From Gordonibacter massiliensis (ex Traore et al. 2017) (GTDB lineage Bacteria > Actinomycetota > Coriobacteriia > Coriobacteriales > Eggerthellaceae), in NCBI GenBank assembly GCA_900170005.1, contig LT827128.1, positions 2,166,168-2,230,167 on the forward strand: a stretch of DNA of 64,000 nt. Direction: 5' to 3'. The translations under genes and the position numbers were made by a program. Below the pieces are notes generated by a model. That model searched no databases and was not told the origin of the DNA. It saw only the letters and a program-made list of their open reading frames with translations. Positions 8,642 through 60,878 of this stretch are shown one piece after another. Numbering within the stretch: position 1 is the stretch's first letter; each line of letters opens with the position of its first letter.

Positions 8642-9013
8642 GTGAAATTCATCATCCGCTGGCTCGTGACCGCCATCGCCTTCGGCGTCGCCGTGTGGAT
8701 CGTGCCGGGCATCGACATCGTGGGCGGCACGGAGGCATGGGCGGCCATCGCCCTCTACGGCTTGATCCTCTCGCTCATCAACATCAGCGTGAAACCCCTC
8801 ATGCAGCTGCTGAGCCTGCCCATCACCGTCATCACGCTGGGCATCTTCTACCTGGTGGTGAACACGCTCATGCTCTACGTGGCCGCATGGCTGGCCAACG
8901 GCATCTTCCAAGTGGGCATCGACATCGCCACGTTCGGCAGCGCCTTCGTGGCGTCCATTGTCATCAGCATCGTGTCGGGTCTCATGAACGCACTGGTGGG
9001 CAACAAGGATTAA
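8642..9013 (+). CDS. YvlD-type small membrane protein (phage-holin family 4 superfamily)
   Basis: A 123-residue protein almost wholly made of four hydrophobic segments, with the conserved NISVKPLMQLLSLPITVITLG between helices 2 and 3 as in Bacillus YvlD. The name phage holin is a domain label; nothing else here is phage-like. I use the GTG at 8642 because GAAAGGAG lies seven bases before it; an in-frame GTG at 8618 lies upstream of that site. Function is not established; YvlD relatives are linked to membrane stress. Confidence 0.8.
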   Translation: MKFIIRWLVTAIAFGVAVWIVPGIDIVGGTEAWAAIALYGLILSLINISVKPLMQLLSLPITVITLGIFYLVVNTLMLYVAAWLANGIFQVGIDIATFGSAFVASIVISIVSGLMNALVGNKD

Positions 9014-9194
9014 AGGACCCTCGGTTTTCGCGTCCGCCGGCCCCTCGCCGGCAGACGAGCTTCAGCGGCCCCGCCGCACCCGACGCTCATCGCGCCGCGG
9101 TTGCAGCGGGGCCGTTCGCGTATCTCCAGAAAGCCTCCATGGCGCAGCGCGCGTTCCGCCCTACAATGGAACGCGAGAAAAACGCCTCGATCGA

Positions 9195-9237
9195 AGGCGG
9201 CCGGGCACCCTGCGCGAGCGCCCGGCCGCCTTCGATC
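9195..9237. promoter_or_regulatory. GC-rich hairpin before lrgA
   Basis: CGAAGGCGGCCGGGC (from 9195) pairs with GCCCGGCCGCCTTCG (to 9237), a 15-bp stem around a 12-15 nt loop. It lies about 30 bp before the lrgA start codon and has no T-run, so it could be a terminator remnant or an element in the lrgAB leader. Confidence 0.5.
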
Positions 9238-9263
9238 CGCCAAACAGGTAAGGAAAACCCATC

Positions 9264-9767
9264 GTGGAACAATCGACCGAGCCCGTCTGCGGGGGCGAGG
9301 AGCGCATGCCCGCGCCCGCCGAACCTTCGACTTCGAAACGGAAAAGGGCGGTGCATGCGGGCAAGCGCGCGGGCATCCTGCTCGTGCAGCTCGCCGTCGT
9401 CGTGGCCGTGTACGCGGCCGGCTGCGCGCTGGCCGCGGTGCTGCCCATCTCGCTGCCGGGCAACATCGTAGGCATGGTGCTGCTGCTCGTGCTGTTGGGA
9501 ACGGGCCTGCTCAAAGGGAAGCACGTCGGGCGCGCCTGCACCTGCCTTTTGGACAACATGTCGCTGTTCTTCATTCCCGCCGGCGTGGCCATCATGGGGT
9601 GCTTCTCGCTTTTGGAGGGCAACGTGCTGAAGTTCGCGCTCGTGTGCGCGGTCACGACGGTGCTGGTTTTCTTGGCCACGTCGTACACGGTCGTCGCCGT
9701 GTCGCGCCTCATGGCGCGTCGGGGCGCAGCCGGCGGGCAGCCCGCGACGGCCGACGAGGAGGGATAG
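9264..9767 (+). CDS. lrgA: LrgA/CidA-family holin-like membrane protein
   Basis: A 167-residue protein. After a 35-residue charged N-terminus, four transmembrane segments carry the family signature PISLPGNIVGMVLLLVLL and NMSLFFIPAGVAIMG. LrgA and LrgB act together in the membrane; in Gram-positive models they modulate murein hydrolase activity, and related systems carry pyruvate or glycolate. The start is a GTG at 9264 after AAGGAAA. The stop is 3 bp before lrgB, whose Shine-Dalgarno lies inside the end of lrgA, so the two are translationally coupled. No LytSR-type two-component system is in the window. Confidence 0.9.
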   Translation: MEQSTEPVCGGEERMPAPAEPSTSKRKRAVHAGKRAGILLVQLAVVVAVYAAGCALAAVLPISLPGNIVGMVLLLVLLGTGLLKGKHVGRACTCLLDNMSLFFIPAGVAIMGCFSLLEGNVLKFALVCAVTTVLVFLATSYTVVAVSRLMARRGAAGGQPATADEEG

Positions 9768-9770
9768 GGC

Positions 9771-10460
9771 ATGCTCTCGATCGTCCTCACGCTGGCGTTC
9801 GGCACGCTCGTGTCGTTCGCCGCGTTCAAGCTGTCGGTGCTGCTGTACGAGAAGGTGAAGTCGCCGCTGCTCAATCCGCTGCTGGTCACGGTGGCGTGCA
9901 TCATCGCCGCCCTGAGCGCGCTGCGCATCCCGCTGGAGTCCTACGAGCAGAGCGTGCAGGTGATCTCGTTTCTGCTGGGTCCCGCCACCGTGGCGCTGGC
10001 GTATTCGGTGTATCAGCAGCGCCAGATGCTCAAAACCCACTTCGTGCCCATCTTCGCCGGGTGCCTTATGGGTTCGATCGTGTCGATGACCAGCGCTTAC
10101 GCGCTATGCAAGCTGTTGGGGCTGGACGATGCGCTCGCGCTGTCGTTCATCCCGAAGTCGGTGACCACGCCCATCGCCATCGCCGTGTCGCAGCAAGTGG
10201 GCGGCATCACGTCCATCACCGTGGCCGCCGTTATCGTCACGGGCATCCTGGGCGCCATCACCGCGCCGATGATGGCCCGCCTGTTCCGCGTGCGCGACGG
10301 CGTGGCGAAAGGCGTGGCCATCGGCACCTGCGCCCACGCCGTGGGCACGACGAAGGCGCTTGAGATGGGCGAGCTGGAAGGCGCCATGAGCGGCGTGTCG
10401 ATAGCCGTGTCCGGCCTGCTCACCACCGCCATCGTCATCGTGGCGAGCTGCTTTCTGTAG
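9771..10460 (+). CDS. lrgB: LrgB-family membrane protein
   Basis: A 229-residue polytopic membrane protein of the LrgB family. Diagnostic stretches are NPLLVTVACIIA, LGPATVALAYSVYQQR, SFIPKSVTTPIAIAVSQQVGG and GTCAHAVGTTKALEMGELEGAMS, all typical of LrgB. The length matches the family (about 230). It forms a two-gene operon with lrgA. Confidence 0.92.
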   Translation: MLSIVLTLAFGTLVSFAAFKLSVLLYEKVKSPLLNPLLVTVACIIAALSALRIPLESYEQSVQVISFLLGPATVALAYSVYQQRQMLKTHFVPIFAGCLMGSIVSMTSAYALCKLLGLDDALALSFIPKSVTTPIAIAVSQQVGGITSITVAAVIVTGILGAITAPMMARLFRVRDGVAKGVAIGTCAHAVGTTKALEMGELEGAMSGVSIAVSGLLTTAIVIVASCFL

Positions 10461-10488
10461 CGCAGAGCCCGCAGGCGCGCAGACAGCC

Positions 10489-10531
10489 CGTAGGGGCGCT
10501 CTCCAGAGCGCCCGTTCGCGCGAAGCGCGAA
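10489..10531. repeat. Half copy of palindromic element family B
   Basis: CGTAGGGGCGCTCTCC followed by AGAGCGCCCGTTC and a short CGCGAAGCGCG hairpin. It is identical to the left outer arm of the complete elements at 21945 and 29852, but here the right outer arm is missing and the mosaic hairpin array follows. Confidence 0.75.
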
Positions 10532-10745
10532 AACGAACCCGCAGGTCAACCCGGCAGGCCAGCGCAGCGAGGCCTGCCATGCGGCCGCAGGCCGCATAAC
10601 GAACTCTCAGGTGGACCGCGCGGAAGCGAAGCGACCCGCGCTTCGCGCGTAAGCGCGAAAACAACCGTCCAGGTTGGAGGGGCGGAAGCGAAGCGACCCG
10701 CCCCATGCGGCCGCAGGCCGCATAACGACCGCGCAGGTTGGCGTA
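10514..10745. repeat. Mosaic hairpin array with AACnAnC...CAGGT spacers
   Basis: Four short hairpin modules alternate with related spacers: AACGAACCCGCAGGT (10532), AACGAACTCTCAGGT (10598), AACAACCGTCCAGGT (10660) and AACGACCGCGCAGGT (10724). Module ATGCGGCCGCAGGCCGCAT occurs twice, and GCGGAAGCGAAGCGACCCG occurs twice. No ORF explains the pattern. Confidence 0.75.
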
Positions 10746-10755
10746 GTAAGTCAGC

Positions 10756-10861
10756 GAGAGGGGCCGGGGTGCGTCGGATTCGCGTGATCGCGGAGGCGAA
10801 GCGTACAACGGGTACGCGAGCCTGCGGGATCACGCGAAGGCGGCGCACCCCGGCCCCTCGC
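10756..10861. repeat. Long GC-rich inverted repeat
   Basis: GAGAGGGGCCGGGGTGCG near 10756 pairs with CGCACCCCGGCCCCTCG ending near 10861. Inside, TTCGCGTGATC pairs with GATCACGCGAA. The result is a roughly 100-bp foldback between the convergent lrgB and alcohol dehydrogenase genes, possibly a bidirectional transcription barrier. Confidence 0.7.
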
Positions 10862-10870
10862 AGCGTCGGC

Positions 10871-10900
10871 GATTGCGCTGGCTGTTAAGCCAGCGCAATC
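10871..10900 (-). terminator. Hairpin at the alcohol dehydrogenase stop codon
   Basis: A perfect 13-bp stem (GATTGCGCTGGCT / AGCCAGCGCAATC) with a 4-nt loop; the stop codon lies in the loop region, so the stem includes the last codons. No T-run follows on the minus strand. It is probably the end of the dehydrogenase transcript. Confidence 0.55.
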
Positions 10901-12060
10901 TTATAGATCTCGCGCGCGTCGTCCATGGTGAGCTTCTTGAAGCTGCCGAAGGGCTCGCCCTTGTTCTCCTTGAGCGTGGGGATGAGCTTCTCGATGTCCT
11001 CTTCGCGCACGTCCAACTCGTCGAGCGTCACGGGCATGCCGAGCGAGGCGAAGAAGCCGCGCGTCTCGTCGATGGCCGAAAGCGCATCGGCCTCGAGGTC
11101 GCCCGTGGGCGCCAGGCCGAACACCTCGCGACCGTAGAAGGCGAAGCGCGCCGGGTTCTCGGCGTACACGTACTCCATCCACGCCGGGAACATCACGGCC
11201 AGACCAGCGCCGTGCGTGATGGCCGGGTTCAGCGCGCTCAGCTCGTGCTCTAAACCATGCGTGGCCCAGTCTTCGTGGCGGCCGACGCCGGCAAGGCCCT
11301 GGTGGCACAGCATGCCCGCCCACATGACGTTCGCGCGGGCGTCGTAGTTGTCGGGCTCCACCATGACGCGCGGTGCCTCGGCGCGCACCGTCTTCATGAG
11401 CGACAGGCACAGGTTGTCCGTGACGGGCACGGCGCCCACGTCGTCGAAGAAGCGCTCCAGCAGGTGGCAGAACATGTCGGTGAGACCGGCGGCCGTCTGG
11501 TACTCCGGCAGCGTGAACGTGAGCTCGGGGTTCATGAACGCCAGCTTCGGGCGCTGCGCGTTGTTCGCGTAGCCCGTCTTCAGCTGCAGCTCGTCGTTGC
11601 TCACCACGGTGTTCTTCGACGCCTCGCTGCCGGCTGCCGGGATGGTGAGCACCACGGCGATGGGCAGCACGTCGTCGGTGAGCCGTTTCGTCTCGAAGAA
11701 GTCCCACACGTCGCCGTCGTAGTGCGCGCCCACGGCGATGGCCTTCGCCGAGTCGATCACCGATCCGCCGCCCACGGCGAGCACCCAGTCGATGCCGTGC
11801 TCCTTGCAGAGCGCGATGCCCTCGCGCGCCAAGCCGATCTCCGGGTTCGGCCGCACGCCGCCCAGCTCCACGTGCTCGATGCCCGCCTCGTCGAGCGCCG
11901 CCTTCACGCGGTCGATGAGCCCGCTCTTCACCGCGCTCTGGCCGCCGTAGTGGATGAGCGCCTTGCGCGCCCCGCGCTCGGCCAGTTTCTCGCCAACCTG
12001 CTCTTCCGCCCCGCGCCCGAACACGAAATGCGTCGGCGATACGAACTCGAAGTTCTCCAT
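10885..12060 (-). CDS. Iron-dependent alcohol dehydrogenase (YqhD/BdhA-like)
   Basis: A 391-residue group III alcohol dehydrogenase. VLAVGGGSVIDSAKAIA is the nucleotide-binding signature, and TIPAAGSEASKNTVVSN is typical of the NADPH-linked YqhD/butanol dehydrogenase branch. Metal ligands are expected from the Asp and His of LTDMFCHLLE and from the His residues around RHEDWATHGLEHELSA and NPAITHGAG. It would reduce aldehydes to alcohols in the cytoplasm. I start at MENFEF (12060), because MENF(E/D)F is the usual N-terminus; GGAAAGGACTGGCTGCC lies upstream. The gene is monocistronic, between repeat regions. Confidence 0.9.
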   Translation of the reverse strand: MENFEFVSPTHFVFGRGAEEQVGEKLAERGARKALIHYGGQSAVKSGLIDRVKAALDEAGIEHVELGGVRPNPEIGLAREGIALCKEHGIDWVLAVGGGSVIDSAKAIAVGAHYDGDVWDFFETKRLTDDVLPIAVVLTIPAAGSEASKNTVVSNDELQLKTGYANNAQRPKLAFMNPELTFTLPEYQTAAGLTDMFCHLLERFFDDVGAVPVTDNLCLSLMKTVRAEAPRVMVEPDNYDARANVMWAGMLCHQGLAGVGRHEDWATHGLEHELSALNPAITHGAGLAVMFPAWMEYVYAENPARFAFYGREVFGLAPTGDLEADALSAIDETRGFFASLGMPVTLDELDVREEDIEKLIPTLKENKGEPFGSFKKLTMDDAREIYKIALA

Positions 12061-49479: not shown

Positions 49480-50373
49480 CTACATCATGGGCACCGTGAT
49501 GGTCACGGGCAGCGCAGCCACGACCACCAGGAAGCGCAGCAGGAAGCCGCCCACCAGCACGCCGGCGTCGGAGCCGAAGCTGATCCAGTGGGCCTTGCGG
49601 CTCTCCTCGAACTCCTTCGGGCTGAAGAACAAAAGCCATGTCTCCAGCGCCGTGGGCAGCACCAGGCCGATGAGCACCAGGCCGATCCAGAACAGCGGCG
49701 CATACTGGCCCACCAGCAGGCTCATGACCGAGTTCCAGCCCGCCACGGAGTTGAAGCTGGTGATGAACATGAGCGAGGCCACCAGCACGAGCTCGATGAT
49801 GGGCAGGCAGAAGTGGAACTTCTTCAGCACGCCCACGCGGTTGAACTCGTCCGCGTGACGCACCACGGCCACCAGCAGCACGCTGGCCATGCCGGCCGAC
49901 ACGGCCGACACCAGAAACAGGATGGGCAGCAGCGCGTTGTTCCACAGCGGGAACGTCTTGCACACGCCCAACAGCGCACCGGTGTACACGGCCACGCACA
50001 CCGCGAACAGCACGCCCACGATGTCAAGCCACACCGGCACGGACTTCTTCAGGAAGTCCAGAACGACCACGACGATGGCCACGATGGTGAAGCCACCCAG
50101 GAACACGACGCCCCACGTCATGACGGAACCGAAGTTCGTCAGCAACAGCGCGAAGCGCAGCGGGTTGTGCAGGCCGCCCTCGGCGTCGAACATGAGCAGG
50201 CACAGGCCGATGATGACCACGATGGGCGCGATGAGGTGTCCCACCTTGCGCATGTTCACGGCCTCGGGATGGCGCCAGCCCAAGAAAGCGGACGTGATGA
50301 ACGCACCGCCGCCCAAACCGGCGAGGAACAGGTACCATGCGATGATGGCGCCCCAGATAGGTTCGAATGACAT
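49480..50373 (-). CDS. NrfD/PsrC-family quinol-oxidising membrane subunit
   Basis: 297 residues with eight to nine hydrophobic helices. IWGAIIAWYLFLAGLGGGAFITSAF at the N-terminus is the PsrC/NrfD first-helix signature, and FITSFNSVAGWNSVMSLLVGQYAPLFWIGLVLIGLVLP is typical of the quinone-site half. It ends the operon with the ferredoxin and molybdopterin genes and would feed menaquinol electrons to them. It begins 6 bp after the ferredoxin stop. Confidence 0.9.
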   Translation of the reverse strand: MSFEPIWGAIIAWYLFLAGLGGGAFITSAFLGWRHPEAVNMRKVGHLIAPIVVIIGLCLLMFDAEGGLHNPLRFALLLTNFGSVMTWGVVFLGGFTIVAIVVVVLDFLKKSVPVWLDIVGVLFAVCVAVYTGALLGVCKTFPLWNNALLPILFLVSAVSAGMASVLLVAVVRHADEFNRVGVLKKFHFCLPIIELVLVASLMFITSFNSVAGWNSVMSLLVGQYAPLFWIGLVLIGLVLPTALETWLLFFSPKEFEESRKAHWISFGSDAGVLVGGFLLRFLVVVAALPVTITVPMM

Positions 50374-50379
50374 CGCTCA

Positions 50380-50922
50380 TCACCTCACGTAGAATACTTT
50401 GGATTTGGTCAGGTCGCCCGCGATGGGCTGGGCGTTCGTCGCCGCGATCTCCTTCGAGATGTCGCTGTCGGGGTCGTCCAGGTCGCCGAAGATGCGGGCG
50501 TTGGTCAGGCACGCCTCCACGCACGAGCACATCTTCGTGCCGCTCGTCTCGGCCGACACCGTACAGAAGCGGCACTTGTCCACCGTGCCCGTCTTCTCGT
50601 TGTGCACGCGCACCTGGTAGGGGCAGGCGGCCATGCAGTACTTGCAGCCGATGCAGCGCCCCTCGTCCACGCCCACGATGCCGTCGGCGCCGATGTAGGC
50701 CGCGCCCGTGGGGCACACGGCCACGCAGGGGGCGTCCTCGCAGTGCATGCACTGCAGCGGCACCGTTTCGATGGACACGTTCGGGTACGTACCCGTTTCG
50801 TGCTCCTCGTAGCGGATGAAGTCCTGCTCGGGCAAAAGGTCGTTCTGGCGCTGGCAGGCCACGCGGCACGCATAGCAGCCGATGCATTTCTTGGTGTTGA
50901 TGAGCATTCCGTAGCGAGCCAT
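50380..50922 (-). CDS. PsrB/NrfC-like four-cluster ferredoxin subunit
   Basis: 180 residues. CIGCYACRVACQRQND, CMHCEDAPCVAVCPTGAAY, CIGCKYCMAACPYQVR and CRFCTVSAETSGTKMCSCVEACLTNA give the four cluster sets. It lacks its own signal and would be carried out with the Tat-bearing catalytic subunit. Its ATG overlaps the stop of the catalytic gene by 1 bp (TAATG), indicating coupling. Confidence 0.92.
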   Translation of the reverse strand: MARYGMLINTKKCIGCYACRVACQRQNDLLPEQDFIRYEEHETGTYPNVSIETVPLQCMHCEDAPCVAVCPTGAAYIGADGIVGVDEGRCIGCKYCMAACPYQVRVHNEKTGTVDKCRFCTVSAETSGTKMCSCVEACLTNARIFGDLDDPDSDISKEIAATNAQPIAGDLTKSKVFYVR

Positions 50923-53123
50923 TACGCACCTACCTTCTTAACGGTCACGACCGCTTCCTGCGTGCACGCGCCTCCGTAGGCCGGCTCCATATGGAAAGGC
51001 ACGAAGTCCATCTGGCGCAAGCCCACCTCGTAGGCGGTGTGCTGGTCGGGCGATGAGCAGCCGTAGTGGCTCGGCATGTACAGCGCCGTGGGATTCATGC
51101 GCTGCGTCACCTTCGCGCGCACGCGGCCGGTGTGCTGGGGGTTCGACACCTCCACCTCGTCGCCGTCCTCGATCCCCAAGCGCTTCGCCACGTCGGCGTT
51201 GAGCCACACGCGGGTGAGGTCGTAGTCCTTCGTTATCTGCATGAGGTCTTCGATGTTCGCAGTCTGCGTGTGGCTGTGGATGGCCTGCTTGCCGCCGATG
51301 AGGCGCAGCTCGTCGCCCATGGGCATGGTGGAAGGCTCCACCCACACCGGATAGGGCGACAACCCCGCCTTCTCGCACGCCTCGCTCGTGAACTGCACTT
51401 TCTCGGTGGGCGTCTTGAACTTGGGCGCCGTGCCGTAGGCGAACTCCTTTTCGGGGAAGTGCGCCGTGCCCGTCTGCTTGAGCGTGTCGAGCGACAGGCC
51501 AACCGTCTGCAGCTGCGCGTCGGCCAGCTCGTCCACGCCGAAGCGGAAGTACTCGCCCACGCCGCACGCCTCCGCCAGCTCGGCGAAGATCTGGTCGACC
51601 GGCTTCGTGTTGGGGTGGATCTTCTCGAGCACCTGGTCGCGCAGCGCCACGCACGGTACCTTGCCGCCGATGAACTCGGGCAGCTCCAAGCGCTCCAGGT
51701 AGCTCGTGTCGGGCAGCACGTAGTCGGCGAGCATAGCGGTTTCGGACATCTGCACGTCCACGACGACGCACAGGTCCAGGTTGGACAGCGCGTCGGCCAG
51801 ATACGCCGTGTTGGAGTAGCCGGCGGCCATGTTCGAGTTGTAGAAGAACATGCCCTTGACGTTGCCTTCCTTGGCCTGCTCGGCCGCGAACAGGTTCGTG
51901 CCCATGCTGGACAGCGCCAGCGGGTACTCGGCCGAGCCCAGCAGCTTGCCCTCGGGCTTCTTCGGGTCGGCGAAGCGCTCGTCGGCCAGCTTGCCGGCCG
52001 ACACGCTCGGCGTGAACAGGGCGCCGCCCTTCTGGTTCCAGCAGCCCAGCAGCGTGTTGAACAGGCAGATGGCGCGCGCCGTCTCGCCCGAGTTCGCGTA
52101 CGAGCAGCCGAACGCGCCGCGCCAGCTGGGCTCGATGGATGCTGCAGGGGCGGCATCGGCGAACTCGACGGCCAAACGGCTGATGGTGGCGGCGGGGATG
52201 CCCGTGATCTTCTCGGCCCATTCGGGCGTGTATTCCGGCAACGCGGCGGCCCACTCGTCGAAGCCCACGGTGTTGGCGGCCACGAACTCCTTGTCGTACA
52301 GGCCGCGCGTCACCAGCACGTTGCTCATGGCCAGCACGAGCGCCAGGTCGGTGCCGGGGTTGATGGGCACCCACTCGTCGGCGAACACGCGGCTGTTGCT
52401 GCAGCGCGGGTCCACCAGAACGATGTGCGAGCCCTTCTCGTGCGCCTTCTGCAGGGCGGCCACGGAGCTGGGGCGGATGGCGTCGGCGTAGCTGCGCCCG
52501 ATGAACATGGTCATCTTCGCGTTCGCCACGTCGGACGAATAGCTGCCCGTGCCGATGGCCTGCGTCATGCCGCTTTCCTTGGACAGGTTGCAGGCGGCGC
52601 CGTGCGTGTACACGTTCGCCGAGCCCAGCGCGTTCATGAAGCGCTTCGTGTAGTACTTGCCGCTGGGACGCGGATCCTGCACCATGGCGAGCGCCTGCGG
52701 GCCCTTGTCGTCGATGATGGCCTTCACCTTCTCGGCGATCTCGCGGTAGGCCTGATCCCACGAGATGGCCTCGAACTTGCCCTGGTCGTTCTTCTTCAGC
52801 GGATCGGTCAGGCGATCCTCGGAATAGGCGATCTGCGAGTAGCCGAAGCCGCGCGCGCAGATCTTGCCTTTGGCGTAGGGGTGGTCGGCGTCGCCGATGA
52901 GCTTCGTCAAGCGGCCGTTGACCACGTAGGCCGTGAAGCCGCACTTGCTCGAGCAGGCGTTGCACAGCGTGTGGACGGTTTTCGTCTCGCCGCCTCCCGA
53001 CGCGTCATCAGCATGCGCCTGTTCCCAAGCGTCGAAGCTCATGAAACCGGCCGCCGCCGTGAGCGCAACCGCCCCAGCGCTGCCAGCCAGGAAGCTTCGC
53101 CTGGTTATAGCGTTTTCTGACAT
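50922..53123 (-). CDS. PsrA/PhsA-like molybdopterin oxidoreductase, catalytic subunit
   Basis: 733 residues. Tat leader TRRSFLAGSAGAVALTAAAG (about 7-26). 4Fe-4S site Cys54, Cys57, Cys61 and Cys89 (C-x2-C-x3-C-x27-C). The Mo-ligand region reads YTHGAACNLSKESG near residue 177: Cys, as in polysulfide/thiosulfate reductases, unlike the Ser of DmsA. WVPINPGTDLALVLAM, MFFYNSNMAAGYSN and VVDVQMSETAMLADYVLPD are typical of the PsrA/PhsA branch. Possible substrates are thiosulfate, polysulfide or tetrathionate; not resolved. Gene order in the operon is ferredoxin, TorD-like, A, B, C. Confidence 0.9.
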   Translation of the reverse strand: MSENAITRRSFLAGSAGAVALTAAAGFMSFDAWEQAHADDASGGGETKTVHTLCNACSSKCGFTAYVVNGRLTKLIGDADHPYAKGKICARGFGYSQIAYSEDRLTDPLKKNDQGKFEAISWDQAYREIAEKVKAIIDDKGPQALAMVQDPRPSGKYYTKRFMNALGSANVYTHGAACNLSKESGMTQAIGTGSYSSDVANAKMTMFIGRSYADAIRPSSVAALQKAHEKGSHIVLVDPRCSNSRVFADEWVPINPGTDLALVLAMSNVLVTRGLYDKEFVAANTVGFDEWAAALPEYTPEWAEKITGIPAATISRLAVEFADAAPAASIEPSWRGAFGCSYANSGETARAICLFNTLLGCWNQKGGALFTPSVSAGKLADERFADPKKPEGKLLGSAEYPLALSSMGTNLFAAEQAKEGNVKGMFFYNSNMAAGYSNTAYLADALSNLDLCVVVDVQMSETAMLADYVLPDTSYLERLELPEFIGGKVPCVALRDQVLEKIHPNTKPVDQIFAELAEACGVGEYFRFGVDELADAQLQTVGLSLDTLKQTGTAHFPEKEFAYGTAPKFKTPTEKVQFTSEACEKAGLSPYPVWVEPSTMPMGDELRLIGGKQAIHSHTQTANIEDLMQITKDYDLTRVWLNADVAKRLGIEDGDEVEVSNPQHTGRVRAKVTQRMNPTALYMPSHYGCSSPDQHTAYEVGLRQMDFVPFHMEPAYGGACTQEAVVTVKKVGA

Positions 53124-53173: not shown

Positions 53174-53854
53174 TCATGCGATTGCCGCATCGGCCATGGT
53201 CAGCTGCGCGCGAATGGTGACGATCACGTCCACGAGCCCGATGTAGAAACGGGCGTCGTCGTCGAGCGTCAGCAACCGCATGCGGTACGCGGTGAGCCAG
53301 GCGAAGCGTTCCGCCAGGAACTGCCGGGCCTCCTCCCGCATGCCGGAGCGCAGCATCACGGCCACCAGGTCGAGCTCGAGCGCCAGATGGTCGGGGCACG
53401 CCGCGAACGCGGGCGGCACCTCCATACCGAATCGCTGCACGAGCTCGCGCAGGTAGTGCGCCGAATCCCCCAGATACAATCCCTGCTGTTGCGAGAACGG
53501 TGCGGGCGCGGCCCCGGTGGACCACGTGCGGTAGAGCGACTCCACCGGCAGGGCGGACTCGGGGAGGCCGCCTGCGAAGTGGCGGGCGGCGAAAGCCTGC
53601 TTCTCGGCATACGTCGGCGGCGTGAACAGAGCGTTCACCTCTCCCGACGAGAGGAATTCCTGCAGCGGACAGCGCCTGCGCGCCCGTGCGAGCGGAGCCT
53701 CCTGCGCTCCCAGCTCGTCCGCCTGCATGACGCGGCGGGCTCCGTCGAGGAAGTCCGACCACAGCGGGCCCTTCGTCAGTTGGCTCCATGCGGCCTCGTC
53801 GACCGGGCCGAAGCACTGCGCGAGCACCGAGAACACGGCCTCGTCTTCCATCAT
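53174..53854 (-). CDS. TorD-like chaperone of the psr-like operon
   Basis: 226 residues, all-helical. It lacks a clear EYxRLF motif but has SLYRTWSTGAAPAPFSQQQGLYLGDSAHYLRELVQRFGMEVPPAFAACPDHLALELDLVAVML, matching the P..S.Y....G....AHYL....GLE.P......DHL..EL..ma.L pattern of TorD-family proteins. It lies between the Tat ferredoxin and the catalytic gene. I choose the first of two adjacent ATGs (53854) because of AAGGAGGGAG upstream. Confidence 0.82.
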   Translation of the reverse strand: MMEDEAVFSVLAQCFGPVDEAAWSQLTKGPLWSDFLDGARRVMQADELGAQEAPLARARRRCPLQEFLSSGEVNALFTPPTYAEKQAFAARHFAGGLPESALPVESLYRTWSTGAAPAPFSQQQGLYLGDSAHYLRELVQRFGMEVPPAFAACPDHLALELDLVAVMLRSGMREEARQFLAERFAWLTAYRMRLLTLDDDARFYIGLVDVIVTIRAQLTMADAAIA

Positions 53855-53927: not shown

Positions 53928-54686
53928 TCACGCCTGCACGAGGGTCGTCGTCCTCACGACGCCCTGGTCGATGACTTTCTGCGCGATGTCCTCCCAGTCG
54001 ATGAACTTGATGGCGCCGTTCGGGCACTGCTCGGCGCAGCGGCCGCACGAGATGCACTTCGTGGAGACGCCGGTCTCGCTGTCCACGCGCGGCATGTTCC
54101 ACGGGCACGCCTGGCTGCACATGCCGCAGCCGATGCAGCGCTCGGCGTCCACCTTGCGCGCGCCGGACTTCTCATCGGCGTAGATGGCGTGGACCGGGCA
54201 GTAGTTCATGCAGGCCGGGTCCTCGCACTGCTTGCAGTGCTCGACGGTGAACTCGCAGTTGTCGTAGATGCCGTCCTTGGTATCGGCACCCGCGCCGAAG
54301 TTGTAGTTCGGCCACACGCGCACGCGGGCGATATGCTGGCTCACGCGACCGTCGTTCTTCAGCGTGCACATCATCTCGCAGCGCTGGCAGCCCGAGCAGC
54401 GGGCGCGGTCGGTCACGATCATCTTCGTGGGCGTGGTGCGGATCTCGATGCGTCCCGAGGCGATGGACTTCGACGTCACGCCCCACGACGCCAGCACGCC
54501 GCCGACCACGAGGCCGGCAACGCCGCAGCCCGCCATGGCCAGCACGCTGCGCCGCGTGAACGTTTTGCTCTTGTGCTCCCCCTCGCCCGTAACGCCTTCG
54601 GCGCCCGTGGTTCCGGTCGTCGCAGGCGCGCTCTCCTGAACGTCCTGGTTCTCGGAGGTGTTCTGGTGCAGATTGGAATCTGACAT
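53928..54686 (-). CDS. Tat-exported four-cluster ferredoxin (YdhY-like)
   Basis: 252 residues. An unusually long N-region (about 42 residues, Ser/Thr/Glu-rich) precedes the Tat motif TRRSVLAMAGCGVAGLVVGG. Four cluster sets follow: CSGCQRCEMMCTLKND, CKQCEDPACMNYCPVHAI, CIGCGMCSQACPWNMP and CISCGRCAEQCPNGAI. It resembles YdhY, the ferredoxin partner of the AOR-type protein YdhV in enterobacteria, and here it is divergent from exactly such an AOR gene. It is also first gene of the psr-like operon, so it may serve either system. Confidence 0.88.
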   Translation of the reverse strand: MSDSNLHQNTSENQDVQESAPATTGTTGAEGVTGEGEHKSKTFTRRSVLAMAGCGVAGLVVGGVLASWGVTSKSIASGRIEIRTTPTKMIVTDRARCSGCQRCEMMCTLKNDGRVSQHIARVRVWPNYNFGAGADTKDGIYDNCEFTVEHCKQCEDPACMNYCPVHAIYADEKSGARKVDAERCIGCGMCSQACPWNMPRVDSETGVSTKCISCGRCAEQCPNGAIKFIDWEDIAQKVIDQGVVRTTTLVQA

Positions 54687-55082
54687 AGCCTGGTGCTCCC
54701 TCCCTCACTTGCATTCCGTGAGTGTCGTTTCCCTGATGCCGACCCCGCGCCGACGTGCCTGGCTTCTCTCGTCTGCCCCGCCTGCGCTTCGCGCGGGCGG
54801 TTGCTCGCCGCGGGGTGGCTGCGCTCGGACTCGCCTCCGATTTCGCGGTGCCACACAACGCCTCGAAGTATGCGCGCCCGCCCGCGCCCGCCCTACCCTC
54901 TTTGAGGGAGTTCTGTAACCTGATCGGCGATTTTGCGGAATTACCCCCAAAGAGGGTATGCCCCTGCCGCCCGGGTCGTGCATACTGCCGCTTGACGATT
55001 GTTGTCAGCGCTCGCATCGCGTCCGTCGGTTCCCACACAACACGAACCACGAATCCTTTTCCCCTAGATTTGGAGATGCAAC
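54687..55082. other. Divergent regulatory region ferredoxin / AOR
   Basis: 396 bp. Holds the inverted TACCCTCTTTG sites. Forward of them CATACTGCCGCTTGACGATT may contain promoter elements for the AOR gene. No ORF is credible. Confidence 0.55.
54894..54958. promoter_or_regulatory. Inverted TACCCTCTTTG sites between ferredoxin and AOR genes
   Basis: TACCCTCTTTGAGGG (54894-54908) is mirrored by CCCCCAAAGAGGGTA (54944-54958), 50 bp between centres. It is placed between divergent promoters, as expected for a shared regulator's binding sites, possibly a LuxR-type regulator. Confidence 0.5.
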
Positions 55083-57212
55083 ATGGCTGACGAAACATCG
55101 TTCGGATGGGCCGGTAAGATCCTCCGCGTCAATCTGAGCACGGGCTCGATCACGACGCAACCGACCGACCCTTACAAAGAGTACATCGGCGGCATGGGCC
55201 TCGCGAACAAGATCATGTACGACGAAGTGCCCGCCGGCACCGACCCGTTCTCCCCGGAGAACAAGGTCATCTTCGCCGTCGGTCCGCTGACGGCTTCGGG
55301 CGTGCCCTTGGCGGGACGCACCACCATCTGCTCGCTGTCCACGTTCACGAAAGACCATCTGGTCGTCGACGCGCACTGCGGCGGCATGATCGGCGCCAAG
55401 ATCAAGCTCGCCGGCTGGGACGCCATCGTGCTGGAGGGCGCGTCCAGCAAGCCGGTGTACCTGAACATCGTCGACGACAAGGTGGAGATCAAGGACGCCG
55501 GTTTCGTGTGGGGCCTGGGCACCCGCGAAGCCACCGAGATACTCAACCGCAAGGAAGGCAACGAGGCGTGCGTGGCCACCATCGGCCCCGCCGGCGAGAA
55601 CCTGCTTCCCTACGCGTGCATCATCAACGCGCGCAACCACTCCGCCGGCGCCGGCACGGGCTCGGTCATGGGCTCGAAGAAGGTCAAGGCCATCGTGGTG
55701 CAGGGCAACGGCAGCGTGCATGTGAAGGACCCGCAGGCTGTGGCCGACCTGTCCGACTACATGCTGCGCGAGGTCATCGGCTCCAACAACAACCACGTGG
55801 TGCCGCAGACGCAGCAGGAATGGGCCGAGTTCTACGACAAGGGCTCGCGTTGGTCCGCTCGCAGCGGCCTGACGTGGGGCATGGCCGAAGACGGCCCCAT
55901 CGACGTGGGCGAGCCGAAGCCCGGCGAGCTGAACACGGTGGGCTACCGCTGCATGAAGTCGGTGTACGACCTGGGCGAGGTGGCCGAGAAGTACACCATC
56001 AAGATGGACGGCTGCCACGGCTGCCCCATCCACTGCTATTCCGACCTGCGCACCGAGCGCACGGGCGAGCTGGGCGGCAAGACCACGTCGGGCAACACTT
56101 GCGCGGCCAACTTCCCGTTCAAGTACATGAACGGCATTCTGAAAACCGATATCAAGGAAGACAGCGAGTCGGGCATCGTGTGGAACACGCTCATCGGCAC
56201 GACCATCGACGAGCTGGGCCTGTGGTGCAACTACGCGCAGCTGTGGCGCGATCTGGCCCACTGCATCAAGGCGGGCGTGTTCGACCGCGTGCTGCCCGAA
56301 GAGGAGAAGGCCAAGTACGACTGGAACCGCATCTACAACGACGACCCCACTATCATGGTGGAGCTGCTGCACGACATCGCCCGCAACGACTCCGAGATCG
56401 CGCACCTGGCCTACGGCCCCTACCACTGGACCGAGCGCTGGGACGACAAGGAGTGGTTCGATCAGCAGCCCAGCCAGCTGATCAACTACCGCGGCTGGCC
56501 CGTGCACCACTCCATCGAGTGCTTCGGGCAGGTGGGCGGCGTGTACAACATGATGTTCAACCGCGACGACATGATCCACTCCGCCGTGAACTTCCAGGGC
56601 TGCGGCCTTCCCATCGAGCTCAAGAAGGAAATCGCCGCCGAGGTGTGGGGCGGCGAGGACGCCATCGACCCGGACAAGAACTACACGCCCATGAACGAGC
56701 ACAAGGCGAACTTCGCCTGGTGGAGCATCGTCACCGACGTGCTGCACGACTCGCTCACGCTGTGCAACTGGACGTGGCCGATGACCATGAGCCCCACGAA
56801 GGCCCGCAACTACCGCGGCGACCTCGATTTGGAGGCCAAGTTCTTCAAGGCCGTCACCGGCGAGGACGTGACCACCGACGACCTGTACCAGGCCGGTGCC
56901 AAGATCATGACGCTGCAGCGCGCCAACACCGTGCGCGGCATGACGAAGGCCGACGGCACCATGGGCGAGAACGACATGCGCAACGTCCACGACACCATGT
57001 GCGCCTGGACGTTCAACGCCGATCCCGACAAGCAGCCGTTCACAGAGGGCACCATCAAAATGGAGCGCAACGACTTCCAAACCGCGCTCGGCATGCTCTA
57101 CGACACGTTCGGCTGGGATCACGAGAAGGGCTGCCCCACGGCCGCCTGCCTCGATCAGTACGGCATGGCCGACGTCAAGGAAGAGCTCGACGGCTTGGGC
57201 CTGCTGCCGTAG
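55083..57212 (+). CDS. Aldehyde ferredoxin oxidoreductase family protein (YdhV-like)
   Basis: 709 residues. The N-terminal domain has GKILRVNLSTGSITTQP, GGMGLANKIMYDE and VGPLTASGVPLAGRTTICSLS, the pterin-binding AOR_N signature. DGCHGCPIHC (about 310-317) and a distal Cys in LTLCNW (about 560) form the 4Fe-4S site. The length matches E. coli YdhV (700) better than archaeal AOR (about 605). It has no Tat signal, so it is cytoplasmic unless moved with a partner. It would carry W- or Mo-bis-pterin and oxidise or reduce an aldehyde/acid or other unknown substrate. The divergent Tat ferredoxin is the likely electron partner. A strong terminator follows. Confidence 0.9.
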   Translation: MADETSFGWAGKILRVNLSTGSITTQPTDPYKEYIGGMGLANKIMYDEVPAGTDPFSPENKVIFAVGPLTASGVPLAGRTTICSLSTFTKDHLVVDAHCGGMIGAKIKLAGWDAIVLEGASSKPVYLNIVDDKVEIKDAGFVWGLGTREATEILNRKEGNEACVATIGPAGENLLPYACIINARNHSAGAGTGSVMGSKKVKAIVVQGNGSVHVKDPQAVADLSDYMLREVIGSNNNHVVPQTQQEWAEFYDKGSRWSARSGLTWGMAEDGPIDVGEPKPGELNTVGYRCMKSVYDLGEVAEKYTIKMDGCHGCPIHCYSDLRTERTGELGGKTTSGNTCAANFPFKYMNGILKTDIKEDSESGIVWNTLIGTTIDELGLWCNYAQLWRDLAHCIKAGVFDRVLPEEEKAKYDWNRIYNDDPTIMVELLHDIARNDSEIAHLAYGPYHWTERWDDKEWFDQQPSQLINYRGWPVHHSIECFGQVGGVYNMMFNRDDMIHSAVNFQGCGLPIELKKEIAAEVWGGEDAIDPDKNYTPMNEHKANFAWWSIVTDVLHDSLTLCNWTWPMTMSPTKARNYRGDLDLEAKFFKAVTGEDVTTDDLYQAGAKIMTLQRANTVRGMTKADGTMGENDMRNVHDTMCAWTFNADPDKQPFTEGTIKMERNDFQTALGMLYDTFGWDHEKGCPTAACLDQYGMADVKEELDGLGLLP

Positions 57213-57310: not shown

Positions 57311-57346
57311 ATGGGAAAGCCCCCGATCACTCGGGGGCTTTCCCAT
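57311..57346 (+). terminator. Terminator hairpin after AOR gene
   Basis: ATGGGAAAGCCCCCGA, 4-nt loop, TCGGGGGCTTTCCCAT: a perfect 16-bp stem 98 bp past the stop, followed by a short T-containing stretch. Confidence 0.7.
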
Positions 57347-57353
57347 GGTTGCT

Positions 57354-57480
57354 CCACTTTGTCATCCTGAGCGGAGGCGCGTAGCGCCGCAGTCGAAGGA
57401 TCTTCGACGAAGGAAGTTCCCCGTTACCGAAGATCCTTCGACTGCGCGCCTGCGGCGCTCCGCTCAGGATGACAAAGTGG
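57354..57480. repeat. Palindromic repeat family A, complete copy 2
   Basis: CCACTTTGTCATCCTGAGCG ... GTCGAAGGATCTTCG in the left arm is mirrored by CGAAGATCCTTCGAC ... CGCTCAGGATGACAAAGTGG. The arms are about 50 bp with a small central loop. The gap 57213-57512 holds only this and the terminator. Confidence 0.85.
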
Positions 57481-57512
57481 GAGCGGCCGGCACTCGAAGC
57501 GGCAAGGCGGCC

Positions 57513-58106
57513 CTACGCTTCAGCTAGTCTCAGGTCGATGCGGGTGGAGCGGAGGGAGCAGTGCTCGCACAGGGCGCAGGGCACGCTCATCGCGTCGCAG
57601 GGTACCCGGGCGTCGAGCTCTTGGAGCGTGGCACCCTGGTGCACGAGATAATCTCCCACGAGGGCGCGGACGGCCTCGACGGCGAAGTGGAGCGTGTACG
57701 ACTTGTCGGCCGGCACGCCGTCTAGGGCACGCTTCACGTCGTCGGTGGTGATGGCCAGCGCCTCCTCGAACGTTCTGCCCTCGAGCAGCGAACACACCAC
57801 GCTCGCGCAGCCGGTCACGGCCAGGCATCCGCGCGTTTTGAATCCCACGCGCACGAACGTCTCGGTGTCGGGATCGACCACGGCGAACAGGCGCAGCGCC
57901 ACCTCGCCGCGCTTCGACTTGCCTACCATACTCTGGGCGTTGAACCCTTCGGGCGCCCCGCCATTGCGGAAGTTCGCCACCACGGCCAGCAGCGTGTCGG
58001 AGTACCCCGCCACGCCGTCTTCTATCTCGGTTTGGTACACGTCCGCCGTGCGCAGCACATGGCGGTCCTTCACCTCGCGGTATACGTTGCGTGCCTCGTC
58101 TTCCAC
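57513..58106 (-). CDS. NifU/IscU-like N-terminal domain protein
   Basis: 197 residues. Residues about 85-150 (FVRVGFKTRGCLAVTGCASVVCSLLEGRTFEEALAIT ... FAVEAVRALVGDYL) follow the IscU pattern of a Gly-Cys loop, a long helix and a second helical pair. The first IscU cysteine region (around NFRNGGAPEGFN) lacks the expected Cys, and the third Cys is not where it usually is, so it is a divergent scaffold or redox protein. A Cys-rich tail (CDAMSVPCALCEHCSLRS) is an addition that could bind metal. Neighbours give no functional clue. Confidence 0.6.
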   Translation of the reverse strand: MEDEARNVYREVKDRHVLRTADVYQTEIEDGVAGYSDTLLAVVANFRNGGAPEGFNAQSMVGKSKRGEVALRLFAVVDPDTETFVRVGFKTRGCLAVTGCASVVCSLLEGRTFEEALAITTDDVKRALDGVPADKSYTLHFAVEAVRALVGDYLVHQGATLQELDARVPCDAMSVPCALCEHCSLRSTRIDLRLAEA

Positions 58107-58151: not shown

Positions 58152-59180
58152 CTACAGGAACATGCCGCGCTCGACGGAGTTCCACTCCGCGAGCGACGCC
58201 GCGTACGCGGGCGTCAGGTACTCGGTCGAGAAATAGTACACGTCGCCGTTCGAGGCCGTGACGGTGTCGAGGTCGGGGTACGCCCCGCTTTCTCGAACCG
58301 TTTGCCACAGCTCGTCGATCTCCTCGCGCGACAGGCCGAAGGGCTCGTTGGAGAGCGAGGCGGCCTCCATCGGGCGCGGGTACTTCTTCGATTCGTCGCG
58401 CACGCACTCGACGAACGTGAGCACGCGATCGTCTTCGCTCGCCAAAAACGACCAGCGCGCGTAGGCGTCCGTCATGCGCTCGGACGAGTACAGGTAGTAG
58501 CTGCGCTTGCCCACCAGCGCCACGATGTCGTCGCACGGCGGCTCCGCAGGCGCGGCATCCGACACGGCAGAGTCGTCCGTCGGCCCGGCCTCGGCAAGCC
58601 TCGGCTCGCCGGCCGCTTCGGCCTCGACGGACGCGTCGGGCACCGTCGGCTCTTCGGGCGCTGCGGCTTCCTCGGGCTCTTCGGACCGGAGCATGCGGGG
58701 CACGCCCACCGCCCGCGTGGCGGTGCGCACGACGGGCGTCGGCTCAAGGGCCTCCCGCCCCGCCCGCTCGGCCTCGCGCTCCTCGAGGTACTCGTACACG
58801 AACATCTCCCAATCCTCGGCCGTCTGGCCTTCGGGCACCAAGCCGGCTTCCGCCCATCTCGACGGTTCCACCAACCGCCCTGCGGCGGACTGCGCGCGCA
58901 CGTCTTCGAAGATCACAGCAAGCAACTCTTGTTCGGTGAGCGCATCGGTGCCAGGCGCAGGTTCAAGGGAGCCCGCATCGAAAGCGGCTTCGCGATCGCC
59001 CTGAACTTCGTCCGCCTTGTCGGCATCGTCGGGAAGCGGCGCTCCGGAGCCCTGCCCCGTAGACGCCCGAACGGGCTCGGCGTCGTCGGACGAATCGGCG
59101 CATCCGTTCCCCTTCGCTTCCTCCTCGGCGAGCGCGCGGATAACCTCTTCGCGAATTCGCTGAGCTTCTTCATCAGCCAT
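58152..59180 (-). CDS. Hypothetical protein with acidic linker
   Basis: 342 residues from the ATG at 59180 (AAAGGAGCAAATC upstream). The N-terminal third is charged and helical (EEAQRIREEVIRALAEEEA). Residues 80-130 may be folded (LTEQELLAVIFEDVRAQ ... GLVPEGQTAEDWEMFVYEYLEE). Residues about 140-235 are Ala/Glu/Pro-rich. The C-terminal 110 residues (VGKRSYYLYSSERMTDAYARWSFLASEDDRVLTFVECVRDESKKYPRP ... VYYFSTEYLTPAYAASLAEWNSVERGM) look conserved. No family recognised. It is divergent from a LuxR-type regulator. Confidence 0.7.
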   Translation of the reverse strand: MADEEAQRIREEVIRALAEEEAKGNGCADSSDDAEPVRASTGQGSGAPLPDDADKADEVQGDREAAFDAGSLEPAPGTDALTEQELLAVIFEDVRAQSAAGRLVEPSRWAEAGLVPEGQTAEDWEMFVYEYLEEREAERAGREALEPTPVVRTATRAVGVPRMLRSEEPEEAAAPEEPTVPDASVEAEAAGEPRLAEAGPTDDSAVSDAAPAEPPCDDIVALVGKRSYYLYSSERMTDAYARWSFLASEDDRVLTFVECVRDESKKYPRPMEAASLSNEPFGLSREEIDELWQTVRESGAYPDLDTVTASNGDVYYFSTEYLTPAYAASLAEWNSVERGMFL

Positions 59181-59327
59181 GATTTGCTCCTTTATCGAGC
59201 CGTTGAGTCCATATGGTATGATGGCCCTCGGAGCGCGCCCGGCATCCCCTCTTTCAGGATAAATCGAGGCGAAAGCGGAGCCGCGCCCCATAGCGACGTC
59301 GATGTCTATCAGGGAAAGGGAGGGCGC

Positions 59328-60878
59328 TTGAGCGCACAAGCCACGGGCAACCAGCCAGAGGGCAACGACCGCGACGAGCAGCTCGCCCCGACCACGGTTT
59401 CAAGCAGCTTCCGCCTGCTCTGGCCGCTCGTGGTGGGCCTTGGGTTCGGCAGAGCCGGCCTCATCGTCGCCAGCTACGGCAGCTACAACAGCACCGACGA
59501 GGGCATCTTCACGGACGGTGCCATGCTGGTGGCCCTCTGCGTGCTCGCCGTGTTCTTCGTCATCATCACCGTGGGCAAGGTGACCATCAAGAAGCGCGCC
59601 ACGAACCTCATCATGCGCGTCGGGATAGCCCTGGAAGCTTTGACGTTGGCCGGCTTGGCAGCGCTCGACCTGACGGGCAACGGCGACCCTGCCCTGCAAT
59701 TCGCCTTGAGCTCGCTGTGCACGCTCGTGTCCTCCGTCACCATATACTATTGGCTGCGCCGCGCCCGCGGAACGGGGACCATCGTGGCGGCCGTGTTCGT
59801 GTTTTCCGCGCTTATCCTCAGCGAGGTGGAGATATACCTGTGCTCGCTGCTGCCCTGCGCCGCAGGCAACTTCGTGGCGGCGGCGCTCGTGCTGGTCCAG
59901 TATCCGTGCATGCTGTGGGCGCGCCATCGCACGCAGCCGCACGACATCGTCTCCGCGTCTCAGTCGAGTGACTACTTCGGCTTCACGAAAACCATGATCC
60001 AAAGCAAGCAGTTCTTGGCGGCCACGGCCATCGGCATAGGCTTCTTGTCCATCGTCATCGGCCTTTTGCGCGGCTACCCCGACGGGCAGCCCATCGCGTT
60101 CGCCCCCGTCACGCGCGCGGCTTACGGCCTGCTCACGGTGGGCATCAGCGGAGCCATCATCGCGCTCGTGCTGGGCAAGCGCCAGCGCGTCCTCACCGTG
60201 GGCATCTTCATCGTCATGGAGCTTTTGGCCTGTCTCGCGCTCATCGCCTACGCCGCCTTCCCCGACATGCTGGACATCGGCGCCGTGTTCACCACGACCC
60301 TCAACGCCCTTATGGTGGCGTTCACCTGGTACATCATCATCGCGTTCATGAGCTACGGATGGCGCGACCCGTACTACTACGCCATCGCCGGATGGCTCGT
60401 GTGGCTGGGCTGCCGCGCCGTCGCGCGCGTGGCGCTCATGGAGTTCTACAACGTGTCGGCGAACGACGTGCTCATGAACGCGATGATGGGCGCCCTTATC
60501 GTCGTGTCGACCCAGGTCATTCTCGTACAGTTCCTCAACATCGCGCGGCGCGAAGCCCAAGAGCACGAAGACCAGGCGGCGCGGCAGGAAAGCGTGCTGG
60601 TGAAGATCATGGGCCTCGACGAGCACGAGAGCCTGGCCGATATGCGGCAGGCGTCCATGCAGCACAACGCCGAGGAGATGGGCAAGCAGTTCCTGCTGTC
60701 GGAGCGCGAGATGGAGGTGCTGGCGCTCTACGCGCTGGGATACACGCAGAAGCGCGTGGCCGAGGAGCTCTACATCACCCCGGGAACCGCCCATGCGCAC
60801 ATCAAGCGCATCTATGCGAAGACCGGCTTGCACTCCCGCCAAGAAATCCTAGACTATATGCAGCAGTACACATCGTAG
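59328..60878 (+). CDS. Membrane-anchored LuxR-type regulator, second copy
   Basis: 516 residues starting at a TTG (59328), chosen because GGGAAAGGGAGG lies five bases before and no ATG or GTG in frame fits. About 12 hydrophobic helices span residues 30-405. After a short linker (EHEDQAARQESVLVKIMG) comes a LuxR HTH: FLLSEREMEVLALYALGYTQKRVAEELYITPGTAHAHIKRIYAKTGLHSRQEILDYM. It has the same architecture as the protein at 36785, but a shorter linker. The next gene follows after 14 bp, an aldolase-family enzyme, so the two are likely cotranscribed. Confidence 0.85.
   Translation: MSAQATGNQPEGNDRDEQLAPTTVSSSFRLLWPLVVGLGFGRAGLIVASYGSYNSTDEGIFTDGAMLVALCVLAVFFVIITVGKVTIKKRATNLIMRVGIALEALTLAGLAALDLTGNGDPALQFALSSLCTLVSSVTIYYWLRRARGTGTIVAAVFVFSALILSEVEIYLCSLLPCAAGNFVAAALVLVQYPCMLWARHRTQPHDIVSASQSSDYFGFTKTMIQSKQFLAATAIGIGFLSIVIGLLRGYPDGQPIAFAPVTRAAYGLLTVGISGAIIALVLGKRQRVLTVGIFIVMELLACLALIAYAAFPDMLDIGAVFTTTLNALMVAFTWYIIIAFMSYGWRDPYYYAIAGWLVWLGCRAVARVALMEFYNVSANDVLMNAMMGALIVVSTQVILVQFLNIARREAQEHEDQAARQESVLVKIMGLDEHESLADMRQASMQHNAEEMGKQFLLSEREMEVLALYALGYTQKRVAEELYITPGTAHAHIKRIYAKTGLHSRQEILDYMQQYTS

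Follow-up and report, generated by a model that had tools for sequence, protein, structure and literature searches.

The closest described relative of the locus analysed here is the Class V WOR (PMC13328260, 2026, Putumbaka et al.). As far as the accessible text of that article goes, Class V corresponds to clade 41 and is confined to it, Eggerthella and Gordonibacter are listed there, and for the Coriobacteria members a transmembrane subunit is noted alongside an "unknown pyranopterin-containing subunit"; none of the 46 aldehydes tested was a substrate of CsWOR41L, and CsWOR41S failed to co-purify. A YdhV-type WorL and a WorS with a Tat signal are common to Class V and our locus, and at least one further membrane-linked subunit would probably be shared too, but the accessible text does not identify the pyranopterin subunit as PsrA-like, and it contains nothing on PsrA ligand loss, operators, a regulator or the exchange for a tetraheme cytochrome in Collinsella. 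The menaquinone reductase QrcABCD also combines NrfD-type and FeS subunits with a PsrA-like subunit, QrcB, that has no cofactor (PMC6303296, PMC13059093); it is fed by cytochrome c3 and not by an AOR-type enzyme, whereas the PsrA of our locus keeps its ligand. The E. coli ydhYVWXUT operon shares YdhY, YdhV and a relative of YdhW with the locus. It differs in being one operon, in having an NrfC-type FeS protein and a membrane cytochrome (YdhX, YdhU) instead of PsrB and PsrC, in having neither PsrA nor a NifU-like protein, and in its single-arginine TRLEF signal. The E. coli aldehyde oxidoreductase PaoABC is similar in that a Tat signal on the FeS subunit exports a catalytic subunit with no signal of its own, but it belongs to an unrelated molybdoenzyme family, has an FAD subunit and is soluble. 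The AOR/WorS pairs 8c0z, 6x6u and 9mqx likewise consist of a large subunit and a small FeS subunit related to YdhY but have no Tat signal; we take them to stand among the cytoplasmic WORs. That placement follows the accessible text of PMC13328260 in part and is otherwise general knowledge.

The window, that is, the whole 64,000-nucleotide stretch of Gordonibacter massiliensis DNA that was analysed, contains the following features.

49480-50373, minus strand: NrfD/PsrC-like quinone-interacting membrane subunit (PF03916, PF14589)
50380-50922, minus strand: PsrB-like subunit of the four-cluster type, without signal (PF13247; NrfC/DsrO/TtrB-like)
50922-53123, minus strand: PsrA-like molybdopterin subunit with Tat signal, Mo-ligand Cys kept (THGAACNLSK; PF00384/PF01568/PF04879; match to 2vpw_A)
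53174-53854, minus strand: TorD/NarJ-type chaperone (PF02613; weak TorD match)
53928-54686, minus strand: YdhY (WorS), Tat-signal ferredoxin, 16 Cys for four [4Fe-4S] clusters (NF007382; TRRxVL in aligned relatives)
54894-54910, plus strand: predicted operator dyad 1, TACCCTCTTTGAGGGAG (PWM 23.4 bits; conserved in relatives)
54942-54958, minus strand: predicted operator dyad 2, TACCCTCTTTGGGGGTA (PWM 29.2 bits; conserved; 124 bp before the YdhV start)
55083-57212, plus strand: YdhV (WorL), AOR-type large subunit, bis-pterin W/Mo enzyme (PF02730 and PF01314, NF007354; no signal peptide)
57513-58106, minus strand: divergent NifU_N-like protein with a Cys-rich tail, CxxCEHCSLR (PF01592, 54 bits)
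58152-59180, minus strand: YdhW-like protein (NF007411, 104 bits, under the 203 cut-off)
59245-59261, plus strand: predicted operator dyad 3, TCCCCTCTTTCAGGATA, between the ydhW-like and luxR genes (PWM 22.8 bits; same place in most relatives)
59328-60878, plus strand: LuxR-type regulator with about 12 hydrophobic segments and a GerE HTH (PF00196; hydropathy count 12)

The ydhY and ydhV genes diverge, with 396 bp (54687-55082) between their start codons, and ydhY leads a minus-strand operon in which TorD, PsrA, PsrB and NrfD/PsrC come after it. On the 3' side of ydhV, and facing it, lies the NifU_N-like gene, then the YdhW-like gene and then the LuxR gene. The original prediction had the coordinates exactly right, as it did the Tat-signal YdhY-like ferredoxin with a long N-region (which we put at about 43 residues before TRRSVLA) at the head of the TorD-PsrABC operon, the divergent YdhV-like AOR, on which we found no Tat signal, and the region with an inverted TACCCTCTTTG pair common to both sides. 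It was mistaken in calling the two genes fused: the ORFs are separate and divergent, which rules out an AOR-ferredoxin gene fusion. Visual inspection also showed a long imperfect inverted repeat, CACTTTGTCATCCTGAGCG...CGCTCAGGATGACAAAGTG, in the interval between ydhV and the nifU-like gene (57359-57483). Ahead of it is a perfect hairpin (57311-57346), possibly a bidirectional terminator.

The window proteins exceed the curated cut-offs of the NCBIfam equivalogs of E. coli YdhV and YdhY, YdhV scoring 1087 bits (cut-off of NF007354, 868) and YdhY 220 bits (cut-off of NF007382, 213). YdhV has the AOR-family [4Fe-4S] ligands CxxCxxxC...C, namely CxxCxxxC (C311/C314/C318) and HDSLTLC (C561), and both motifs are kept in 47 of the 48 relatives' loci. 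The NF007354 score places it in the YdhV clade, as expected of a Class V WorL, and YdhY, with TRRSVLA and a hydrophobic stretch, has the Tat signal and/or TM segment of a Class V WorS. The further membrane subunit of the class would be the NrfD-type PsrC, which is encoded in the adjacent operon with conserved synteny. The locus is best read as the Eggerthellaceae form of a Class V oxidoreductase (clade 41, YdhV/YdhY), a kind already published, with clade 41 membership read from the YdhV equivalog score rather than from the 92-clade tree.

The YdhV of Gordonibacter sp. 28C is 97% identical to that of the window. At two G. pamelaeae-type loci (L070, L102), PsrC, PsrB, PsrA and YdhY are 90-98% identical to their window counterparts, unlike YdhV, which is only 78% identical; the window YdhV is 93-94% identical to that of Eggerthella. 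This pattern of identities suggests a replacement of ydhV by transfer inside the genus. Two further loci (L081, L038) have two ydhV genes close together and a single ydhY.

Of 81 sampled genomes of the family, 44 have YdhV, and 43 of those also have YdhY, adjacent to it; in the odd genome (G006) YdhY is cut by a contig end. At every Eggerthellaceae locus on a contig that reaches far enough, PsrC-PsrB-PsrA-(TorD)-YdhY diverges from YdhV. At all 20 Collinsella/Enorma-type loci, YdhY and YdhV share a single operon that continues into a membrane-anchored tetraheme cytochrome c (at least four CxxCH-type motifs and an N-terminal anchor), without Psr; YdhW-like, NifU-like and LuxR genes are nearby at most of them. 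YdhY and YdhV are thus constant, and the partner changes with the lineage: PsrABC in Eggerthellaceae, the tetraheme cytochrome c in Collinsella/Enorma and YdhXUT in E. coli. This exchange indicates that YdhY belongs to YdhV first and that their electron partner is exchangeable, Psr being the form used in Eggerthellaceae. The YdhV/YdhY-Psr unit is real: its divergent layout, common operators and YdhY/YdhV co-occurrence are conserved in Eggerthellaceae, and they bear out the "one apparent unit" of the original prediction.

A better ferredoxin for the AOR, encoded elsewhere, had been named as an observation that would count against this unit. Among the AOR-linked ferredoxins of the genome there was no second one for it, as a Tat ferredoxin of its own lies next to each of the three other AOR paralogues. 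These paralogues (8796-11642, minus strand, at locus L063; 9040-11936 and 12588-15459, plus strand, at L064) are 25-33% identical to YdhV and fall under the YdhV cut-off, with a Tat ferredoxin (SRRQF) ahead of each; they may be Tat-linked WORs outside clade 41.

The original prediction had also pointed to a topology problem, a cytoplasmic AOR beside an exported ferredoxin. The comparative evidence does not support a cytoplasmic AOR and favours co-export of YdhV with YdhY. The signal is on YdhY only, as in a Tat hitchhiker, and its distribution would fit transport of the pair; the Tat motif occurs on the YdhYs of both Coriobacteriia families. Within the Psr complex, PsrA has a signal and PsrB has none. 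C-type cytochromes are extracytoplasmic and made outside. Because the partner of YdhVY in Collinsella/Enorma is such a cytochrome, YdhVY should be extracytoplasmic too. PaoA exports PaoB and PaoC by Tat hitchhiking (PMC4273604), and Class V WORs are thought, in the accessible text of PMC13328260, to be placed outside likewise. If YdhV is carried out with YdhY, the topology problem disappears. The E. coli YdhY has TRLEF and no twin arginine, and export through Tat may thus not apply to every YdhY.

The window PsrA matches Thermus thermophilus PsrA (2vpw_A) over its full length (E 8e-88), with the ligand region aligned, including the Cys. It is only PhsA/PsrA-like, scoring 419 bits against a PhsA equivalog cut-off of 694, and therefore no substrate is assigned. 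Judged by sequence, and for the window copy only, the locus has the A, B and C subunits of a PsrABC/PhsABC-type enzyme, with a Tat signal on A and a Cys-ligated Mo. Among 62 modules (L060, with a truncated ORF, was left unscored), the Mo-ligand Cys is kept in 39 and lost in 23. TorD is present in 34 of the 39 modules with the Cys and missing from 22 of the 23 without it; the two losses are linked across modules, with too few phylogenetically independent pairs for significance. Eleven different residues replace the lost Cys, which makes an alternative ligand unlikely. All 62 PsrAs keep four of four FeS Cys and the RR motif, and PsrB, PsrC and YdhVY persist in the modules that have lost the ligand. 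On the YdhV+YdhY tree the Cys state changes at least eight times, five of them on strongly supported branches, a count that covers loss and replacement by transfer alike. At a YdhV identity of 70-74%, PsrA identity is 65±6% among pairs with the Cys and 33±3% among pairs without it, compared with 76% and 63% for PsrB; PsrA is about twice as diverged in Cys-less modules at equal YdhV distance, and PsrB, PsrC and YdhY changed much less. Complete stand-alone TorD-PsrABC operons (L179-L185) keep the Cys. A PsrA with the Cys but no TorD was seen within a Cys-less clade in Adlercreutzia hattorii (L149), and is possibly a replacement by transfer.

Because the ligand is lost in 23 of 62 modules, PsrA catalysis would appear dispensable to the module, though the window copy retains its Cys. 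By sequence, an A subunit without Mo ligand, as in Qrc, is found in those 23 relatives and not in the window. These data suggest that PsrA has repeatedly turned into a QrcB-like non-catalytic subunit and that the complex works as an electron wire and not as a catalyst; for the window genome, whose PsrA keeps the ligand, a non-catalytic reading would hold by analogy with these relatives. The idea that two respiratory enzymes are combined here thus stands in part, since the window copy keeps its Cys, and is weakened by the loss in the 23 modules. We found no report of PsrA metal-ligand loss in such modules among the open-access full texts searched.

The two sides also appear to share their control. 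TACCCTCTTTG occurs at 54894-54904 (plus strand) and 54948-54958 (minus strand) and nowhere else in the 3.95-Mb genome, and each inverted arm makes up most of a 17-bp dyad, TACCCTC-TTT-GRGGGTA. Dyads 1-3 are the only strong PWM sites in the 64-kb window; the best of 30 simulated windows reached 15.1 bits. Across relatives, the PWM, scored with the tested locus left out, places up to two sites in the ydhY-ydhV interval and usually a single one in the interval that separates luxR from the ydhW/nifU pair, also in a Gordonibacter in which luxR and ydhW are about 10 kb distant. Some distant lineages (for example, L044, L052, L058 and L059) have weak dyads or none. Centre spacings among genera are mostly 47-48 bp, then 37, 59, 80-84 and 91-92 bp, in steps of about one helical turn. 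A wider regulon was rejected: the genome has only one more site within one mismatch, and its total matches are no more numerous than those of the reversed-pattern control. The three dyads are best described as a candidate three-site local regulon. Their regulator may be the neighbouring 12-TM LuxR, given its position and the role of its counterparts in E. lenta, where 12-TM LuxR activators control reductive enzymes (PMC9734109). The metal-ligand loss and this shared, predicted three-site regulon are the new part of the present analysis.

The AlphaFold model of the YdhW-like protein (m83bedb607334, pLDDT 78) had no PDB match at E<=0.001, and we dropped a known chaperone fold for it; by our own reading, the cysteines conserved in the NifU-like protein differ from those of standard NifU, and a classic scaffold was rejected as well. 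At 12 loci the two are fused in one ORF (L104, L115, L118-L120, L122, L125, L126, L129, L130, L138, L142), which suggests a joint role, perhaps in cluster or cofactor maturation of YdhVY.

Taken together, the comparisons make it probable that YdhVY is the enzyme, that PsrBC is its link to menaquinone and that PsrA has repeatedly become a QrcB-like non-catalytic subunit. YdhV would fold with its pterin in the cytoplasm and bind YdhY, whose signal would carry the pair out through Tat by hitchhiking. Outside, electrons would move between the four FeS clusters of YdhY on one side and PsrB and the menaquinone-linked NrfD/PsrC on the other, provided that the proteins dock and couple to quinone as we suppose. 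The Psr complex may have been co-opted from a stand-alone TorD-PsrABC reductase, a type that these genomes still encode elsewhere; in the co-opted complex PsrA would not be needed as an enzyme and would have become QrcB-like repeatedly, with that of the window genome still intact. The 12-TM LuxR, if it is the regulator, would switch on YdhV, YdhY-PsrABC and the YdhW/NifU-like pair together through the three 17-bp dyads.

One could instead envision independent neighbours, with a cytoplasmic YdhV served by a soluble ferredoxin, a separate exported YdhY-PsrABC reductase, and only the regulator in common. YdhV has no signal and is transcribed from the opposite strand, and stand-alone PsrABC operons exist; yet YdhY adjoins YdhV in every lineage, even those without Psr, the window ferredoxin is itself a YdhY equivalog, and the other AORs of the genome have ferredoxins of their own, which together leave this scenario very improbable. 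Another scenario is that Gordonibacter and the other lineages with the Cys export a complex with two live pterin sites, the bis-pterin W/Mo site of YdhV and the Cys-ligated Mo of PsrA, connected through the FeS clusters of YdhY and PsrB, so that electrons pass from substrate to substrate or both sites share the quinone pool; the sister lineages would then hold the same complex after the death of its second site. The intact ligand and FeS Cys and the presence of TorD in the window and 33 other modules fit this idea, as does the conservation of PsrA among Cys-bearing pairs given above. Since the PsrA ligand is lost in 23 of 62 relatives, which keep the remainder of the module, however, the core function does not require two live sites, and we consider such a complex unlikely.

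A tentative but more credible alternative keeps the complex and reverses it: YdhV would oxidise an aldehyde-like compound outside, and electrons would pass through PsrBC to menaquinone, as in Qrc. Most characterised AOR-family members do oxidise aldehydes, and QrcBCD works towards menaquinone in periplasmic H2 and formate oxidation (PMC6303296). For the YdhVY-enzyme, PsrBC-link reading, we lean slightly towards flow from menaquinol to YdhV as a terminal reductase, because of the cytochrome type in Collinsella and the regulator family. Membrane-anchored tetraheme cytochromes, such as that of the Collinsella operon, more often feed reductases. Carboxylate reduction by menaquinol would be too uphill, so if YdhV is a reductase, its substrate should be something else. 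The 12-TM LuxRs of E. lenta, with their reductive targets (PMC9734109), argue against the oxidative direction.

For the Class V WORs, the comparison supplies a defined partner set, and the LuxR regulator with its three predicted sites could be used as a reporter of the inducer. It makes a sharp prediction, that the PsrA subunit is dispensable as a catalyst, and cultivable strains exist of both types, Gordonibacter with an intact PsrA and Adlercreutzia with a presumably dead one. Within one bacterial family, a respiratory molybdoenzyme subunit seems to have turned non-catalytic several times, in a manner linked with loss of its chaperone.
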